Shown one piece after another: positions 8,831-46,369 of a stretch of 64,000 nucleotides of DNA. A program made the translations under genes and the position numbers. Origin of the DNA: Nitrospirota bacterium (GTDB lineage Bacteria > Nitrospirota > JACRHL01); the NCBI GenBank assembly GCA_029881725.1, contig JAOUMB010000013.1:1-64000 (forward strand). Reading direction: 5' to 3'. Under the pieces are notes generated by a model. It had not been told where the DNA came from and did no database searches. It worked only from the letters and a program-made list of their open reading frames with translations. How positions within the stretch are numbered: position 1 is the stretch's first letter; each line of letters opens with the position of its first letter.

Positions 8831-9484
8831 GTGATGGGCTCCTATTCGCTACACAAAACGGTATCTCCGGAACGGAAACTCGAGGCCACCCGCGCGCGCC
8901 ATTATCGCGACAAGGCGGAATCGGCCCTGTTCCGTCAATACATCAAAATCGCTTTAGCCCTGTGTGTGGCCCCGGCCCTGTTTTTTGTAAAGGCCATCAG
9001 CGCCTACGTGGTCACTGCCATGGGTGCGGTGTTTCTGGTTGGTGGAGTGGCGGGTTCCGTCTGGTACGGACGCCGGTTCAAAAACAGCCAGAACCGGGAG
9101 GAATGGCCCACGGTGGAGGGGCGCATGCTCAAAAGTCGTCTGATCAAACTGCCCTCCAAGTTCGCGCGTGGAACCTTTGATTACCTGCCCGAGGTGCAGT
9201 ATGAATACACCGTGCGCAACAAAACCTACACCGGCACGGCGATTCGTGTGGGAGATGACAAGGATCCCCTGCTGGAAACCCATCGCGGGCGTTGGGCGCC
9301 ACTGATCGAACGGCAGCCGGTGGGCAGTTTCATCCGAATCCACTACAATCCGGACCGACCGGCCGAGGCGTGTCTGGAGCCAAGCGAGTCCGGTTTAGGT
9401 GTGGCGTTTGTCACCGCCGGACTGGTGGCCGTTCAGGGGGCTTACGGCCTGCTGAATGGACTGATCCGGATGGGGGTCTGGTAG
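8831..9484 (+). CDS. DUF3592-like membrane protein
   Basis: WPTVEGRMLKSRL..YEYTVRNKTYTGTAIRVGDD..IRIHYNPDRPAEACLEP and two TM segments. Confidence 0.75.
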   Translation: MMGSYSLHKTVSPERKLEATRARHYRDKAESALFRQYIKIALALCVAPALFFVKAISAYVVTAMGAVFLVGGVAGSVWYGRRFKNSQNREEWPTVEGRMLKSRLIKLPSKFARGTFDYLPEVQYEYTVRNKTYTGTAIRVGDDKDPLLETHRGRWAPLIERQPVGSFIRIHYNPDRPAEACLEPSESGLGVAFVTAGLVAVQGAYGLLNGLIRMGVW

Positions 9485-39539: not shown

Positions 39540-39796
39540 TGGACCCACCGGAATGTTCCGATTCGTACATAGCGGGTGGATTTTGAACACCGGCGGGTAA
39601 GAAATACTGTCACCTGGACCAATTTCCGGCACGGGGACAGGGGGCGAAGACTCGGGGGTGGTCTTCACAAACGATTGAAAATTTTTAATTTACGCCCTTC
39701 CGTGAAGGATGCGGTGGTGACCTGTTTAAAAATGGTCCGCCGTTTGCAGCCTCTATTGGCAGGTTTTGTCAGACACGTACTCGTAGGATTGATCCA

Positions 39797-39877
39797 ATGC
39801 CTGTTTTCGCCAATCTCATCTGTGGTACCTGCTTCGCCCTTGCGGCCATGGGTTGGCTGGTACTGTTGGCTGGCTGA
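39797..39877 (+). CDS. 26-aa single-TM small protein candidate
   Basis: MPVFANLICGTCFALAAMGWLVLLAG; AGGA about 9 nt upstream of ATG, strong terminator ~57 nt downstream; similar to the 44012..44089 ORF. Confidence 0.5.
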   Translation: MPVFANLICGTCFALAAMGWLVLLAG

Positions 39878-39931
39878 CCACCAGCTCCTCACGCGGCGCC
39901 CGGGACTTTCTGGTTCCGGACGGTGTGACAA

Positions 39932-39963
39932 AGAAGCCCCGCTTTCCGGCGGGGCTTTTTTTG
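39932..39963 (+). terminator. Rho-independent terminator
   Basis: aaGAAGCCCCGctttCCGGCGGGGCTTTTTTTg, stem followed by T7. Confidence 0.8.
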
Positions 39964-39986
39964 TCTGCGGGCAGTGATCCGCAGGT

Positions 39987-41840
39987 TCAATCCTTCTTTG
40001 TTTTCTTGCCTTTGGCGGTGGTTTCACGCGGCTTGGGGGTAGCTTTGGAAATCACCCCCGCCTGCTTGGGAGACTTCCCGTCCTTCTTGCCGGGTGAGGT
40101 GGTGTCCGCCGCAGGTGCCGGTTCGGTCTCCACTCCCACGTCGGTGGCCGGGGCGGACTGTACAACGGCCTTGGGCACGCCGCGCTTTTCTTCCGGTCCG
40201 TCCGGGGTGGAGGCGCCGTCCGGAATCGTCCGGGCCGGCAAGGGGGCTGCCAGAGGCGCTTCGGAGCCGAACAGGATGACCCGGTTGCGGCCATTGTTCT
40301 TGGCCCGGTAGAGGGCCTGATCGGCCCCTTCCAGCAGTTCGCGCGGGGCGATCATGGTGGTGGTCTGGGGAGAGGCTACCCCGATCGACAGGGTGGTGCT
40401 CACCTTGTGCTTGCCACACACCACCACCATTGCCTCGGCCTGCTCGCGCAGCCTTTCGGCCAGCATGCTGGCCTGCTCGCCGTTGGTCTGTGGCAGGATG
40501 ATGGCGATTTCCTCACCTCCGTAACGGGCGGCCAGATCCACCTTGCGGATGTGCCGGGCCACCAGTTTGGCCAGTTCAATCAGATAGGCGTCACCGGCCT
40601 GATGGCCGTAGCTGTCGTTGACGTTTTTGAAGTGATCGACGTCGATCAGCAGCAACGACAGGGGCAGGTCGTAGTAGGTGACCGCGCGCTGGAATTCCTC
40701 CTCCAGGCGGCGGTCGAACTGGGCCCGGTTGAACAGGCCGGTGAGTCCATCGAACAGCGCCATCTGTTCCAGTTTGTCCTCGAACGCCTTGCGCTCGGTC
40801 ACGTCGCGGAAGTTGAGCACCATGCCGGCCTGCTCTCCTTCGTGGTCCAGCAGCGGCGAGGCCGTCAGTTCCACCGGGCGGCGGGTGCCGTCGCTGCAAA
40901 GAATGTGCATGGTCTTCAGAGTGACCGGCTGTTCCTCCACTACCACTTCATACAGAATGTGGCGCGCGGTGGGACGGTCGCGGGTGCCCTCGATTTTCAG
41001 TACGTCCTCGATGGCCTGATGCATGGCCGCCTCGTGGGAGCGGCCGGTGAGCGCCTCGGCCAGGGGGTTGATCATGGTGACCACCCCTTTGCGGTCGGTG
41101 GCGATCACGCCCTCGCCCACGCTGCGCAGCACGGTGGACACCAGTTGCTTGTCGTTTTCGCGGGCGCGCAGGTTGGCCTCCAGCAGGGCTTCCGTATGTC
41201 CGGCCCGCTGCCATTCAAAGCGGAAAAAGGTCAGCGCCGCAGCCAGTCCCAGCAGGGCGCAGGCGATGATCAGCGCCAGTTGGGTGCGCACAAAAGCGGA
41301 AAACTGGTTGTCCATGGCGTGGTGCAGGGCTTCGTTGGTGCGCTGCATGGACAGGTTGAAGGCGGTGAAGGCCCCCTCGAACTGCTCATTGTCCTTGTTG
41401 TCGTGCCCGGCGCGGCGGTTGACGGTGGCCAGGTACAGTCGGGTCTTGGCGGCGTCGCGGAATTCCTCCAGCCGGGTCACGGTGCGGCCCAGTTGCTGGG
41501 TCAGTTCCGGGTCGTCGATGGGGATGATCTTCCATTCCTCGGTGTCGGCCCCATCCAGCATGGCGCGGGCCAGCAGGTCGGCATGATCCAGCCGCGAACG
41601 GACTTCCTCAAAGCGGCTTTTGGCGTCTCCGGCCAGAATCTCGTCCATCACCAGGTGGGCACGCACCACTTCCACCTCAATCGAGGTTGCGGCGCGGGTC
41701 AATGGTACGTTCACCGCCTGAATGCGCGCACCCGTGGACAGCACGTACCCCATCCCCGCCAATACGAACAGGGTTAGCACGATGGTGAAGATGGGCATGC
41801 GGCCCGGGCCGGCGAGGGTTTTGAGATTGAAGCCCTGCAT
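39987..41840 (-). CDS. Membrane PAS-GGDEF diguanylate cyclase
   Basis: PAS segment, LFNRAQFDRRLEEEF, RYGGEEIAIILPQ (GGEEI active site); Lys/Pro-rich C-terminal tail. Confidence 0.92.
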   Translation of the reverse strand: MQGFNLKTLAGPGRMPIFTIVLTLFVLAGMGYVLSTGARIQAVNVPLTRAATSIEVEVVRAHLVMDEILAGDAKSRFEEVRSRLDHADLLARAMLDGADTEEWKIIPIDDPELTQQLGRTVTRLEEFRDAAKTRLYLATVNRRAGHDNKDNEQFEGAFTAFNLSMQRTNEALHHAMDNQFSAFVRTQLALIIACALLGLAAALTFFRFEWQRAGHTEALLEANLRARENDKQLVSTVLRSVGEGVIATDRKGVVTMINPLAEALTGRSHEAAMHQAIEDVLKIEGTRDRPTARHILYEVVVEEQPVTLKTMHILCSDGTRRPVELTASPLLDHEGEQAGMVLNFRDVTERKAFEDKLEQMALFDGLTGLFNRAQFDRRLEEEFQRAVTYYDLPLSLLLIDVDHFKNVNDSYGHQAGDAYLIELAKLVARHIRKVDLAARYGGEEIAIILPQTNGEQASMLAERLREQAEAMVVVCGKHKVSTTLSIGVASPQTTTMIAPRELLEGADQALYRAKNNGRNRVILFGSEAPLAAPLPARTIPDGASTPDGPEEKRGVPKAVVQSAPATDVGVETEPAPAADTTSPGKKDGKSPKQAGVISKATPKPRETTAKGKKTKKD

Positions 41841-42121
41841 CAGGGGGGGTAACTGCTCCTTGCTATCCACCGGGGGGCAAAACACCCCGAATTCCGGCAC
41901 CTTCCCATAATCGTCCGGGTGCGGCTCCGCCGGACGCCCCGATGCACATCGGGTTGCGGCGTATCGGCAGTACGGCACCTTGTCACGGTCTTATCGGACG
42001 AAGTGCGCGAAAAGTGCAACGAACAGGCTCATTTTTCGCCCCGTATTTCGATTTTTGGGTGGGGTATCGTCTATGATGCGGACCACGCTGGACAATTCCA
42101 ATTCGTCAGAATGGGGCGCGG

Positions 42122-42697
42122 ATGACGGCAATCGGGCAAACAACTGGACGGACCGTATCGACCCATCGCCGATGGGGAATCGGCGTGCTGCTGTTGCTGG
42201 TGGCCGTGCTGGAAGGGGGGTGCTCCGTGCTGACCCTGGCCCGGGGCCTGAGCGCCGAGCGCATGGAGATCCGGTCGCGTCAGGAGGCCATCGACCGATA
42301 CCTGACCGGCCGCCCCCTGTCGTGGCTGGAGGGGGTATGGGTGTGGCAGGACAACACCTACGAGGTGGCGATCCTGCCCAACGAAACCGGCCTGTATCCC
42401 GACTTTCAATACGTAGCGGTGGTGACCGACGCGATTCCCTTCGGCTGGCAGAAGCCGGGGCGCATCAAGATGTTTATCCAGTCCACCGCCCGGCGCGACG
42501 TCTATACCGGCCGCATCTGGATGCGCGATTCCACCGAATCCGGGGTGCGTCTGAAAATCAGGAATCGCAACGAACTGCGCCTGGATGTGGGCGAGGAGAA
42601 GGTGTCCCTGTACCGGGTGTTTCCTGCCGATACCGGCCCGCCCGATGCGGACGATCCGGGCCCTGGCCCGTCCAGCAGCGGCAGGCAGGCACCCTGA
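42122..42697 (+). CDS. Hypothetical lipoprotein-like exported protein
   Basis: WGIGVLLLLVAVLEGGCSVL lipobox-like; directly upstream of the protease remnant. Confidence 0.65.
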   Translation: MTAIGQTTGRTVSTHRRWGIGVLLLLVAVLEGGCSVLTLARGLSAERMEIRSRQEAIDRYLTGRPLSWLEGVWVWQDNTYEVAILPNETGLYPDFQYVAVVTDAIPFGWQKPGRIKMFIQSTARRDVYTGRIWMRDSTESGVRLKIRNRNELRLDVGEEKVSLYRVFPADTGPPDADDPGPGPSSSGRQAP

Positions 42698-42722
42698 GCC
42701 CAACCGGGGGACCCGCATCTAA

Positions 42723-43010
42723 GCGTTTGGCTTTCCGCTGGCGGGGAAATTGTCGGACCAACTGACGGTGACCGTCGGCATCATCAACAACACCTCCGGA
42801 TTCGAGGGCGTTCCCGGCGCGTTCCAGATACGTCCGCAGGTCCATGCGGGCAATACAGCGGTGGCCCGGTGCTGGATGAGCGGGGGCGCGTGGTGGGGGC
42901 GCGTGGTGGGGGCGGCCCCGTGCGCCACCCGCCCGGCGGGCGGTGTGCTGGCGGCGGACGAACTGGTGCGACGCACCTCCGGTGCGGTGGTGCAGGTGCG
43001 GGTGTTTTAG
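42723..43010 (+). pseudogene. Remnant of a trypsin-like (S1/HtrA-like) serine protease domain
   Basis: Frame 3: AFGFPLAGKLSDQLTVTVGIINNTSGFEGVPGAFQIRPQVHAGN; frame 2: SGGPVLDERGRVVGA; then frame 3 again: AAPCATRPAGGVLAADELVRRTSGAVVQVRVF. The catalytic G-N-S-G-G-P motif is split by a frameshift. Confidence 0.6.
42881..42914. repeat. 13-bp tandem duplication
   Basis: gggggcgcgtggt gggggcgcgtggt gggggcg. Confidence 0.85.
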
Positions 43011-43753
43011 GCGCCCGGATTCTGTATCTGACGGACCACCAGCGCCGATCCCCAGGCCAGCCCCAGGATCATCAGCGCCCCTCCCATGTTCCACGCCACC
43101 GTGGCAATCAGCCGGTCGTGGCGAAGTAGTTCCAGGGAATACAGCAGGTTGCGCCAGTCGTGGGCGTCGGGCACGTCCTCGGCCAGAAATCCGCCGATCA
43201 TCATCAGTTTCAGCGATTGGGCATCGCCGATGTAGGGGGACAGGTCGATCAGGCTGGTGCCCAGCCACCAGGTGGCGACCGCGGCACCAAACGGCTGGGG
43301 CCGGGCGTATAGAAACCCGGCCATTGCCGCCAGCGGAATCAGCAGTTGCATCAGACTGCCCCCGGCGATGCTCATAAAACGTCCGAATGGGGCAAACAGC
43401 AGGTGCCCCGCCTCGTGAAACACCAGATGGGCGTTGTGCAGAAAGTGGCTGTCCCACACCCCCCAGGGACGGTTGAGCTGGGCGAAACGCCACCCCCACC
43501 AGGCCAGCAGCACTAATAGCAGGGCGCGCCCGGCGGCCACCGGCAGACCATCTTCCGGGTCGACCCAGGTCAGGTGACGCCAGACGTGGGAACCCCAGCC
43601 GGCCCCGCCGGGGACGGGAGGCGGCGCGCTCGGTGCCGGTGCTCGACGGGCGGCGTTCGCGCGCGCAAACACCACACCGCAGCGGCCGCAGGCGCGGTCA
43701 CCGGGCACCATCCCGGCCGGGGTGGAAACTCCGCATTGGCGACAGTCGTGCAT
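43007..43753 (-). CDS. Zinc-ribbon + M50-like membrane protein
   Basis: N-terminal CRQC...CGRC ribbon; HLVFHEAGHLLFAPFG with multiple TM segments. Confidence 0.7.
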   Translation of the reverse strand: MHDCRQCGVSTPAGMVPGDRACGRCGVVFARANAARRAPAPSAPPPVPGGAGWGSHVWRHLTWVDPEDGLPVAAGRALLLVLLAWWGWRFAQLNRPWGVWDSHFLHNAHLVFHEAGHLLFAPFGRFMSIAGGSLMQLLIPLAAMAGFLYARPQPFGAAVATWWLGTSLIDLSPYIGDAQSLKLMMIGGFLAEDVPDAHDWRNLLYSLELLRHDRLIATVAWNMGGALMILGLAWGSALVVRQIQNPGA

Positions 43754-44011
43754 ACCTCCCTTTTCGGCGCGATCACGCGGAGCGGAAAGCAAACGGCGGG
43801 CATACGGGACAAAGATTTTCCCAGAATCGGCGGTTTTCACCCGTTGTAAGGTAGGGGCCGGTACGGCGCGGTGTTGTGGTAACAATTTGATTTAAATATA
43901 CAAAAACCCATTAACCCGATGCGGTCCGCGAATTGCAATATTGCCCGCTTGATAATCAGTAATGGCCCGTGTGTTTGGGGCCGTGTGTGCCCTTGTGAGG
44001 AACAATATTCT

Positions 44012-44089
44012 GTGAACGTGATGAACTTCATTTGCACCGCCGCCGTGATGCTGCTCGCGATGGCCTGGGCGGAATACTACATCGAGTAG
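44012..44089 (+). CDS. 25-aa single-TM small protein candidate
   Basis: GTG start: MNVMNFICTAAVMLLAMAWAEYYIE; GAGG about 11 nt upstream; similar to the 39797..39877 ORF. Confidence 0.45.
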   Translation: MNVMNFICTAAVMLLAMAWAEYYIE

Positions 44090-44224
44090 TCGCCACTCCC
44101 TCCGGATCTCCGGGTCCGTTTCGTTTCTTACCATTCAACATTGAACCCTGCGACTGCTTGTGCGCCCCGCTGGCGGCGGCATGCGTAACTTGCTGGAAAA
44201 GATGTCACGGGTTTAGTACCGTAC

Positions 44225-46369
44225 GTGAAAACAGAACGAGTCCCGAACGGCCAACCAAGGTGGGTTCGGGTGGCGGAAGAATTGCCCGCGCGCCGGGGGG
44301 AGCGCGGTCCTGTATGGCAGGAGGTTGCCCCGGTGCGTGTGTGGTTTCGGAATGTTCTGCCTCTTCTCCTGCGGGCATGCGCGGTCTCGCTGACAGTGGG
44401 AGTGGCGCTCCCCGGGATGGCGCTGGCCGGAATGTCGATTTCCGAACGGCACAACGGGATATCTCCGCTCGGTTGTGTGACCCTGAATAACCCGGGGCAA
44501 CTCCTGTATTGCGGCCATTCCGCGGTCGACCTTTGGCAGATTTACCTGTATCAACCGGCTACCGCCACCTCCCCCGCAGCCTCCATCCGCTTGAGTCACC
44601 AGCCGGAACTGGTGGAGCCGCAGGCCGATCTGAACGACGTGGGGCAGGTGGTGTGGGCCGCCGGCGCCACGGGAGCCAGGCACATCTTTTTTTACGACGG
44701 TGCGGGGGCGGCCCGCATCTCCGTGGATGGTGACAATCGCCACCCGCGCCTGAACAACACCGGGCAGGTGGTGTGGGAGTGGTCCCCGCCCGGCGGAACC
44801 GGTTCCGCCATCGTTCGGTATGACATCGCCACCGGCGCGTTGACGCCGGTCAGCAACCCCGGCACGGCCATGGACCTTCGTCCCGATATCAACGACTCCG
44901 GGCAAATGGTGTGGATGCGGCGGACACTCTATTCCTCATCCCTGATGCGACTGGACGCCATCGGCGGGACTCCGGCCACCGTGCCGGATTCGGGGCAGGC
45001 GGGCATTCCCCGGATCAACAATCCGGGTCACGTCGCCTGGGCGGTTGCGAGCGGCCCGGGCGGCGGCATCCATCTGCACGATGGGATGGTGGACCGGATC
45101 ATTGCGGCAACCGGTACGGACGGATTTTTATCCCCGGCATACGTTTCCCTGAACGATCAGGACGAGGTGATGTGGACCGCTCCTCATTCCGCGACTCAAA
45201 CCGGTCAATTGTTCCGTGGCGGCATCGCCGGGGTTGCCCAACTCACCACCACGTTCCAGGACAACGCCTTCCCGTCCATCAATGACGGCGGGCATTTCGC
45301 CTGGGTCCAGCAGGCCGACGACGGCTACCGCCTGCTGTCGGCCTTCGACGATCCCAACCTGACGCCGGGCAGTGAGTTGTGCAATGGCCTGGACGACGAT
45401 CTGGACGGGGAGATCGACGAATTTCAGACCGTGGACGGCTATACCGACGCCGATGGCGACGGTTGGGGGGTGTTGCCCCCCGCACGCGTGTGCCGTGATA
45501 CGCCGGGGTACACCGCCCGGTGGGGGGATTGTGACGATACCGATCCGCAGGTCTATCCGCAGGCAATGGAAGTGTGCAACGGGGTGGACGACAATTGCGA
45601 CGGCCGGGTGGACGAGGGCGTGGATTGGCCCTATTTCCGCGATGCGGACGGCGATGGCTACGGCCATTCGGCATCGACCACCCGCGCCTGCGCCACGCCC
45701 CCGCCCGGATTCAGCGCCAACCCGGACGATTGTGACGATACGGACCCCGCCATTCATCCCCTTGCGGTGGAGGTGTGCAACCTGCTGGACGACAACTGCA
45801 ACGGCCGCAACGATGAATACGTATGCAACACGACTGCGGGCAGCGACGTGCTGGCCAACGCCGGCCCGGTTGTGGACGTGCTGTTTTCCGTGGTCAGCCT
45901 GCGCGGGGAAACCGTGGCCGTGATCCGGGATGACGCGCCACCCCTGCCGGACGGGTATACCGGGGGGATCGCCCCGGTGTACTACGACATTTCCACTTCC
46001 GCCCTGTTTGCCGGGGAGGCCATTGTGTGCATGGCGCCGGAGCCGGGCCGGTTTGCGCCCGATGCCGACCTGCGCCTGCTGCACTGGGACGCGGTGGATC
46101 AGGCGTGGCGCGACCTGCCCCAGGTGGCCGGCCTGCCCACCACTCAGGTGTGCGGCGTGACTGCGTCCTTTTCCACCTTCACCCTGGCGGCGGCCATGCC
46201 TCCGCCCCCATCCCCCCCGGCACCGGGGGCCGAGCCCGGTGCCGGGGGAGGCTGCGCCGTGGCCACCGGTGTCGCCTCCCGCGGTGACGGCCTGACCGTA
46301 ATGGCCCTGCTGGCCCTGTTGTCTGCCGCCCTGCGCGGTCGTGGAAAACGGAAAATTGCTGAGGGTTAA
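44225..46369 (+). CDS. Secreted MopE-like (putative metal-binding motif) protein with N-terminal repeat region and Cys-containing C-terminal sorting signal
   Basis: Signal peptide near residue 40 (true start may be a downstream GTG); repeats LNxxGQVVW/INDSGQMVW; two DCDDTDPxxxPxAxEVCNxxDDNCdGRxDE motifs; C-terminus GAGGGCAVATGVASRGDGLTVMALLALLSAALRGRGKRK. Confidence 0.85.
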   Translation: MKTERVPNGQPRWVRVAEELPARRGERGPVWQEVAPVRVWFRNVLPLLLRACAVSLTVGVALPGMALAGMSISERHNGISPLGCVTLNNPGQLLYCGHSAVDLWQIYLYQPATATSPAASIRLSHQPELVEPQADLNDVGQVVWAAGATGARHIFFYDGAGAARISVDGDNRHPRLNNTGQVVWEWSPPGGTGSAIVRYDIATGALTPVSNPGTAMDLRPDINDSGQMVWMRRTLYSSSLMRLDAIGGTPATVPDSGQAGIPRINNPGHVAWAVASGPGGGIHLHDGMVDRIIAATGTDGFLSPAYVSLNDQDEVMWTAPHSATQTGQLFRGGIAGVAQLTTTFQDNAFPSINDGGHFAWVQQADDGYRLLSAFDDPNLTPGSELCNGLDDDLDGEIDEFQTVDGYTDADGDGWGVLPPARVCRDTPGYTARWGDCDDTDPQVYPQAMEVCNGVDDNCDGRVDEGVDWPYFRDADGDGYGHSASTTRACATPPPGFSANPDDCDDTDPAIHPLAVEVCNLLDDNCNGRNDEYVCNTTAGSDVLANAGPVVDVLFSVVSLRGETVAVIRDDAPPLPDGYTGGIAPVYYDISTSALFAGEAIVCMAPEPGRFAPDADLRLLHWDAVDQAWRDLPQVAGLPTTQVCGVTASFSTFTLAAAMPPPPSPPAPGAEPGAGGGCAVATGVASRGDGLTVMALLALLSAALRGRGKRKIAEG

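Follow-up and report, generated by a model that had tools for sequence, protein, structure and literature searches.

Can a pair of open frames encoding only 26 and 25 residues be genes, and if so, what drives their expression and what might their products do? The question arises in a Nitrospirota genome of 3.0 Mb (G000), within a window of 64,000 nucleotides, the whole stretch of DNA analyzed here (GCA_029881725.1, contig JAOUMB010000013.1, positions 1 to 64,000). An initial annotation had read the two frames, ORF1 and ORF2, as tiny single-transmembrane (TM) proteins of one family. Its coordinates for both frames are correct in the sequence, as are the Shine-Dalgarno (SD)-like purines upstream (Table 1). 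ORF2 begins where it was placed, with GTG rather than ATG as its first codon; the first M of its product is the initiator Met.

Table 1. Features of the two tiny genes and their surroundings, in window coordinates
Feature	Position	Strand	Description
Candidate enhancer (UAS) footprint of ORF1	39565..39591	+	GTACATAGCGGGTGGATTTTGAACACC; G003 counterpart GTACAAAATGGGGGAGGGATTTTGTACACG; found post hoc
IHF-like site of ORF1	39668..39680	-	TTTCAATCGTTTG, 1 mismatch to WATCAANNNNTTR; AT-matched chance about 7%
Predicted sigma54 -24/-12 promoter of ORF1	39733..39748	+	TGGTCCGCCGTTTGCA; 12/12 to degenerate sigma54 pattern
SD-like AGGA of ORF1	39785..39788	+	From sequence; AGGA kept in G003
ORF1	39797..39877	+	ATG..TGA, 26 aa, MPVFANLICGTCFALAAMGWLVLLAG; one predicted TM helix carrying C-x-T-C and M-x-W
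Strong hairpin/U-tract terminator 3' of ORF1	39927..39965	+	RNA fold -26.5 kcal/mol, z -4.6
IHF-like site of ORF2	43880..43892	-	AATCAAATTGTTA, 0 mismatches; AT-matched chance 0.9%
Predicted sigma54 -24/-12 promoter of ORF2	43922..43937	+	CGGTCCGCGAATTGCA; 11/12
SD-like GAGGA of ORF2	43997..44001	+	From sequence; GAGG kept in G003
ORF2	44012..44089	+	GTG start, 25 aa; one predicted TM helix with A-E-x-Y-[IV]-[ED] at its end
Weak hairpin resembling a terminator, 3' of ORF2 and before MopE-like gene	44103..44118	+	Fold -9.3 kcal/mol, z -1.5
MopE-like secreted protein gene (Cu-binding MopE motif)	44225..46369		Downstream of ORF2

ORF1 and ORF2 are almost certainly real protein-coding genes because each is conserved in relatives; their resemblance to one another, taken alone, is weak evidence. 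The comparison set consisted of three other members of the family, one per genus. In G003, a Nitrospirota MAG of another genus in the same family, ORF1 has a counterpart of the same length with 77% amino acid identity, and ORF2 has one in the same place with 52% identity. An ORF1-type copy with 52% identity occurs at a related locus in a third genus (G001), and no homolog of ORF2 was found in G001 or G002. Across these three genomes of one family, a shallow phylogenetic depth, the start Met, the first Cys, and M-x-W are invariant in all five copies.

The surroundings of the genes are also kept. Both lie on one G003 contig, arranged and oriented as in the window: ORF1, a convergent PAS-GGDEF gene, a small lipoprotein-like gene, ORF2, a MopE-like gene, and a FIST gene. 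The window has one additional gene between the lipoprotein-like gene and ORF2 (43007..43885, minus strand); it encodes a 292-residue membrane protein that has no match in Pfam or NCBIfam and is apparently absent from G003 at the equivalent place. The G001 copy lies ∼3.5 kb upstream of a FIST gene.

Substitution patterns indicate what has been preserved. ORF1 and its G003 counterpart differ at 24 of 75 nucleotides, distributed 8/2/14 over the codon positions and without indels. When the same changes were placed at random, the protein was preserved as well in 0 of 20000 simulations for ORF1 versus G003, again in 0 of 20000 for ORF2 versus G003, and in a fraction of 0.00025 for ORF1 versus G001. 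NG86 estimates are dN 0.39 and dS 1.38 for ORF2 versus G003, and dN 0.19 with saturated dS for ORF1 versus G003. Loss of the frames or frame-breaking indels in relatives had been named as evidence that would count against coding; the frames are kept, the G003 copies contain no breaks, and their substitutions are purifying. These patterns uphold the claim that the frames are selected, tiny single-TM coding sequences that are very probably translated. Short hydrophobic frames are common and statistics drawn from the window alone are weak, as would fit two chance open frames, but conservation of frames and synteny across genera largely refutes that reading and leaves it next to no probability.

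The same data bear on the idea that the promoters described below drive regulatory sRNAs, the tiny ORFs being incidental or leader peptides only. Sigma54-dependent sRNAs are known, for example GlmY in enterobacteria. The predicted ORF1 transcript is short and stand-alone, ending before a strong terminator, and ORF2 is placed before the MopE-like gene much as a leader peptide would be. However, codon-position bias and the simulations show that conservation tracks protein and not RNA. Moreover, shuffled sequences fold as well as the transcribed regions do (z -0.45 and -0.05) and a search of Rfam returned no family at gathering score, on which grounds an RNA element was rejected. The sRNA reading is very unlikely, and protein-coding genes remain the preferred one.

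Within reach of the searches made, the tiny genes are narrowly distributed. A five-sequence profile run against 396 genomes of the phylum returned only five strong matches, each one a sequence already in the profile, with the rest at noise level; the best match outside the family (E 0.007) contains an internal stop and is not credible. The ORF2 profile matched only the window and G003. A contig scan of 84,980 species (GTDB) recovered the same two relatives and one chance match, in Synechococcus, which lies inside a longer membrane protein. Neither tiny protein has a match in Pfam, NCBIfam, PHROGs, or PDB, and a scan of viral contigs found no relative. DNA-level searches of the relatives with the gap sequences gave chance matches only (a carA segment, a terminator, and a short exact match). 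The search of relatives with dN/dS, proposed alongside the initial annotation, has yielded homologs of both genes in G003 and none that is credible outside the family.

Whether ORF1 and ORF2 form one family is a separate matter. ORF1 types have C-x-T-C-F...[AS]-M-[GA]-W-L in common and a helix devoid of charged residues, whereas ORF2 types share N-V-x-x-F-x-C-T...L-L-A-M-x-W-A-E-x-Y-[IV]-[ED]. Hydropathy exceeds 2 over 15 residues (Kyte-Doolittle) in window ORF1 and in both G003 proteins, and a single predicted hydrophobic helix takes up most of the chain. As the initial annotation had it, a one-gap alignment of ORF1 with ORF2 does contain nine identities, and different codons encode the V, N, I, C, L, and A residues that the two have in common. 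The pair scores 38 versus 31 for the best pair among the window's other TM-like tiny ORFs, and residue shuffles reach this score at p=0.0006. Comparison of the two small families by hhalign gives a probability of 65% (E 6e-5 for one comparison), in register over C9...M-x-W. The two genes also agree in size, promoter type, and neighborhood, ∼4 kb apart. Alternatively, they may encode unrelated small TM proteins, convergent short hydrophobic helices with only a promoter type in common. Unrelated membrane helices score about as well as the pair: of 327 TM-like 26-mers from long frames, 3 match ORF1 at least as closely. In G003 the counterpart pair reaches only 22 (shuffle p=0.20). Furthermore, C-x-T-C is confined to ORF1 types; ORF2 retains only the first Cys and has a charged/aromatic C-terminal end. 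The one-family claim is suggested by the in-register profile comparison and weakened by the helix background and the G003 pair. The caution that chance or convergent TM composition could explain the resemblance fits that background and is countered by the shuffles and hhalign. Convergence is a substantial possibility that falls short of being probable, and homology of ORF1 and ORF2 is slightly favored.

The promoters provide a further shared feature. A near-perfect sigma54 -24/-12 site (TGGYCYG-N4-TTGCW) lies 64-95 bp upstream of the start codon in all five copies. The five sites (TGGTCCGCCGTTTGCA, CGGTCCGCGAATTGCA, TGGTCTGCTCCTTGCA, TGGTCCGGGACTTGCT, and TGGCCCGGAGCTTGCA) score 12, 11, 12, 12, and 12 over 12 positions; among random 110-bp stretches 1% reach 11 and 0.4% reach 12, for a pattern that was first seen by eye in these flanks and scored afterwards. 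Between ORF1 and its G003 counterpart, AAATGGTC and TTGCAG count among the best-conserved blocks of the upstream region, and the fourth site, that of the G003 ORF2 counterpart, is at an equivalent distance from the start (90 versus 92 bp). Neither gap yielded a sigma70-type promoter. A single RpoN and roughly a dozen strong EBP AAA domains are encoded in each genome. From these computationally identified sites we infer that ORF1 and ORF2 are very likely sigma54-dependent, with sigma54-RNA polymerase and an EBP transcribing each tiny gene from its own -24/-12 promoter. A relaxed pattern allowing one mismatch did not outperform its control and was set aside.

The 3' surroundings of the two genes differ. 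ORF1 is best explained as a stand-alone unit ended by its predicted terminator, which none of 200 shuffles equals in folding and beyond which lies the convergent GGDEF gene. In the window and in G003 (L011: ∼8873 to 9205) alike, the MopE-like gene comes shortly after ORF2, and the best explanation of this arrangement is that ORF2 either stands alone or leads into that gene; the two may be co-transcribed and share the sigma54 promoter. ORF2 could even function chiefly as the translated leader, or as the first cistron, of a sigma54-driven MopE-like secreted protein gene, given its placement in both genomes, the weakness of the intervening hairpin, and the sigma54-type sites at other surface lipoproteins. 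Yet the ORF2 amino acid sequence is under selection through its C terminus, and no such gene follows the ORF1-type copies, which makes a mere leader role unlikely. The shared sigma54 promoters, the C-x-T-C of the ORF1 type, the ORF1 terminator, and the position of ORF2 before the MopE-like gene all go beyond the initial annotation.

Sites resembling the IHF consensus (0-1 mismatch) lie upstream of three of the five tiny-gene promoters. The ORF1 site recurs at the identical position (-65) and strand in G003, where ORF2 has only a poor match; the G001 promoter is without IHF-like and UAS-like elements. HU/IHF-type proteins are present in the three genomes tested, and IHF-type DNA bending is likely at most tiny-gene promoters. 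Among the tiny genes a UAS-like element accompanies ORF1 only, as a TGWACA(C) element, picked out post hoc, at -149/-148 in both G000 and G003.

A wider set of sites gives these promoters a context. The pattern TGGYNYG-N4-TTGCW occurs at 28 sites in G000 and G003. Apart from the tiny genes, the sites precede the pilA genes of the two genera, a pilin-like gene, and a number of genes for secreted lipoproteins; others fall inside genes and are probably chance matches. Genome-wide, the sigma54 pattern is barely enriched over a reversed control (17 versus 10 in G000, 11 versus 10 in G003). When the regions upstream of 15 such promoters were searched for palindromic motifs, the result was a TAACAA-N4-TTGTTA-like motif (70.6 versus 35-45 in shuffles) that closely resembles the IHF consensus. 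IHF-like sites with at most one mismatch occur at 11 of 17 promoters versus 3% of random stretches; the signal is weaker against stretches of equal AT content (single-site p 0.009-0.09), and the promoter elements, from three genomes, were partly picked after viewing the sequences.

Both pilA genes (L133, G000:C102:56216; L126, G003:C53:332) have TGGTACG-N4-TTGCT, an IHF-like site, and, again noted post hoc, TGWACA at -93. A conserved PilR-type pilA promoter is probable in this Nitrospirota family. The TGWACA elements do no more than hint at a shared EBP. Homologous genes for secreted lipoproteins (GEVVIGLTDADGDF...VDVTSLTL) are found in G003 (L124, G003:C39:23784), where the gene is preceded by a sigma54-type promoter that has both TGWACA and IHF-like sites, and in G001 (L012:8972-10894), where the gene adjoins the tiny ORF1-type gene and its product matches nothing in Pfam or NCBIfam. 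In G000 (L129, G000:C84:88492) and G003 (L120, G003:C31:102532), large surface lipoproteins that resemble each other (RYL[IL]PILGI..ALSGC) have sigma54-type sites upstream.

At RpoN promoters, IHF typically binds between the enhancer and the promoter, and in Geobacter IHF affects PilA (PMC7962754). Control of pilA by PilSR is established in P. aeruginosa (PMC6058289). The pilA and pilin-like genes of G000 and G003 resemble PilR/RpoN-regulated pilA with IHF in carrying the same -24/-12 pattern, IHF-like sites, and TGWACA. Given this typical IHF arrangement of RpoN promoters and the precedent of PilSR control of pilA, the tiny genes most likely belong to a sigma54 envelope program; that they share the EBP regulon of the pilins is a tentative extension and less likely than not. 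The tiny proteins themselves are not pilins: G[FM]TLxE, the prepilin N-methylation motif, is absent from their sequences, and they have no Pfam N_methyl match.

Single-TM proteins of the E. coli inner membrane such as YohP, MgrB, KdpF, CydX, and AcrZ offer a comparison for the products. Like them, the tiny proteins have fewer than 50 residues and one predicted TM helix and are encoded by apparent stand-alone or leader cistrons; to our knowledge the C-x-T-C...M-x-W pattern occurs in none of these five. Small membrane proteins of similar size are thought to be non-catalytic, act on membranes or larger complexes where studied, and are often induced by stress or alternative regulators (PMC12719787). 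The initial annotation inferred a subunit or regulator of a membrane complex. By analogy with such proteins, a modulator of a membrane complex is a reasonable expectation: once the sigma54 envelope/pilus program is on, the products would be inserted in the inner membrane and modulate a larger partner, perhaps a sensor kinase, transporter, or pilus component. No conserved gene partner pointing to the target was found. The conserved C-x-T-C near the helix end in the ORF1 type suggests a disulfide, metal, or helix-packing role. A more specific proposal, and a quite improbable one, casts the C-x-T-C helices as type IV pilus partners coinduced by PilR/sigma54 that, for example, sit beside the pilin in the inner membrane and feed back on a PilS-type sensor or the assembly platform. 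Taken together, we infer that ORF1 and ORF2 probably encode single-helix proteins of the inner membrane that are under sigma54 control and modulate an envelope complex, perhaps one linked to type IV pili.

Proteins of 25 residues evade annotation, and almost none are known in uncultured phyla. Here an unannotated pair is backed by conserved coding sequence together with a specific regulatory signature, which points to a named type of regulon. If the link to the pilin genes is true, these proteins would add a new single-helix participant to the biology of the envelope or pilus under sigma54 control; if they are in fact pilus partners, Nitrospirota would have a micro-protein of a new, pilus-linked kind.
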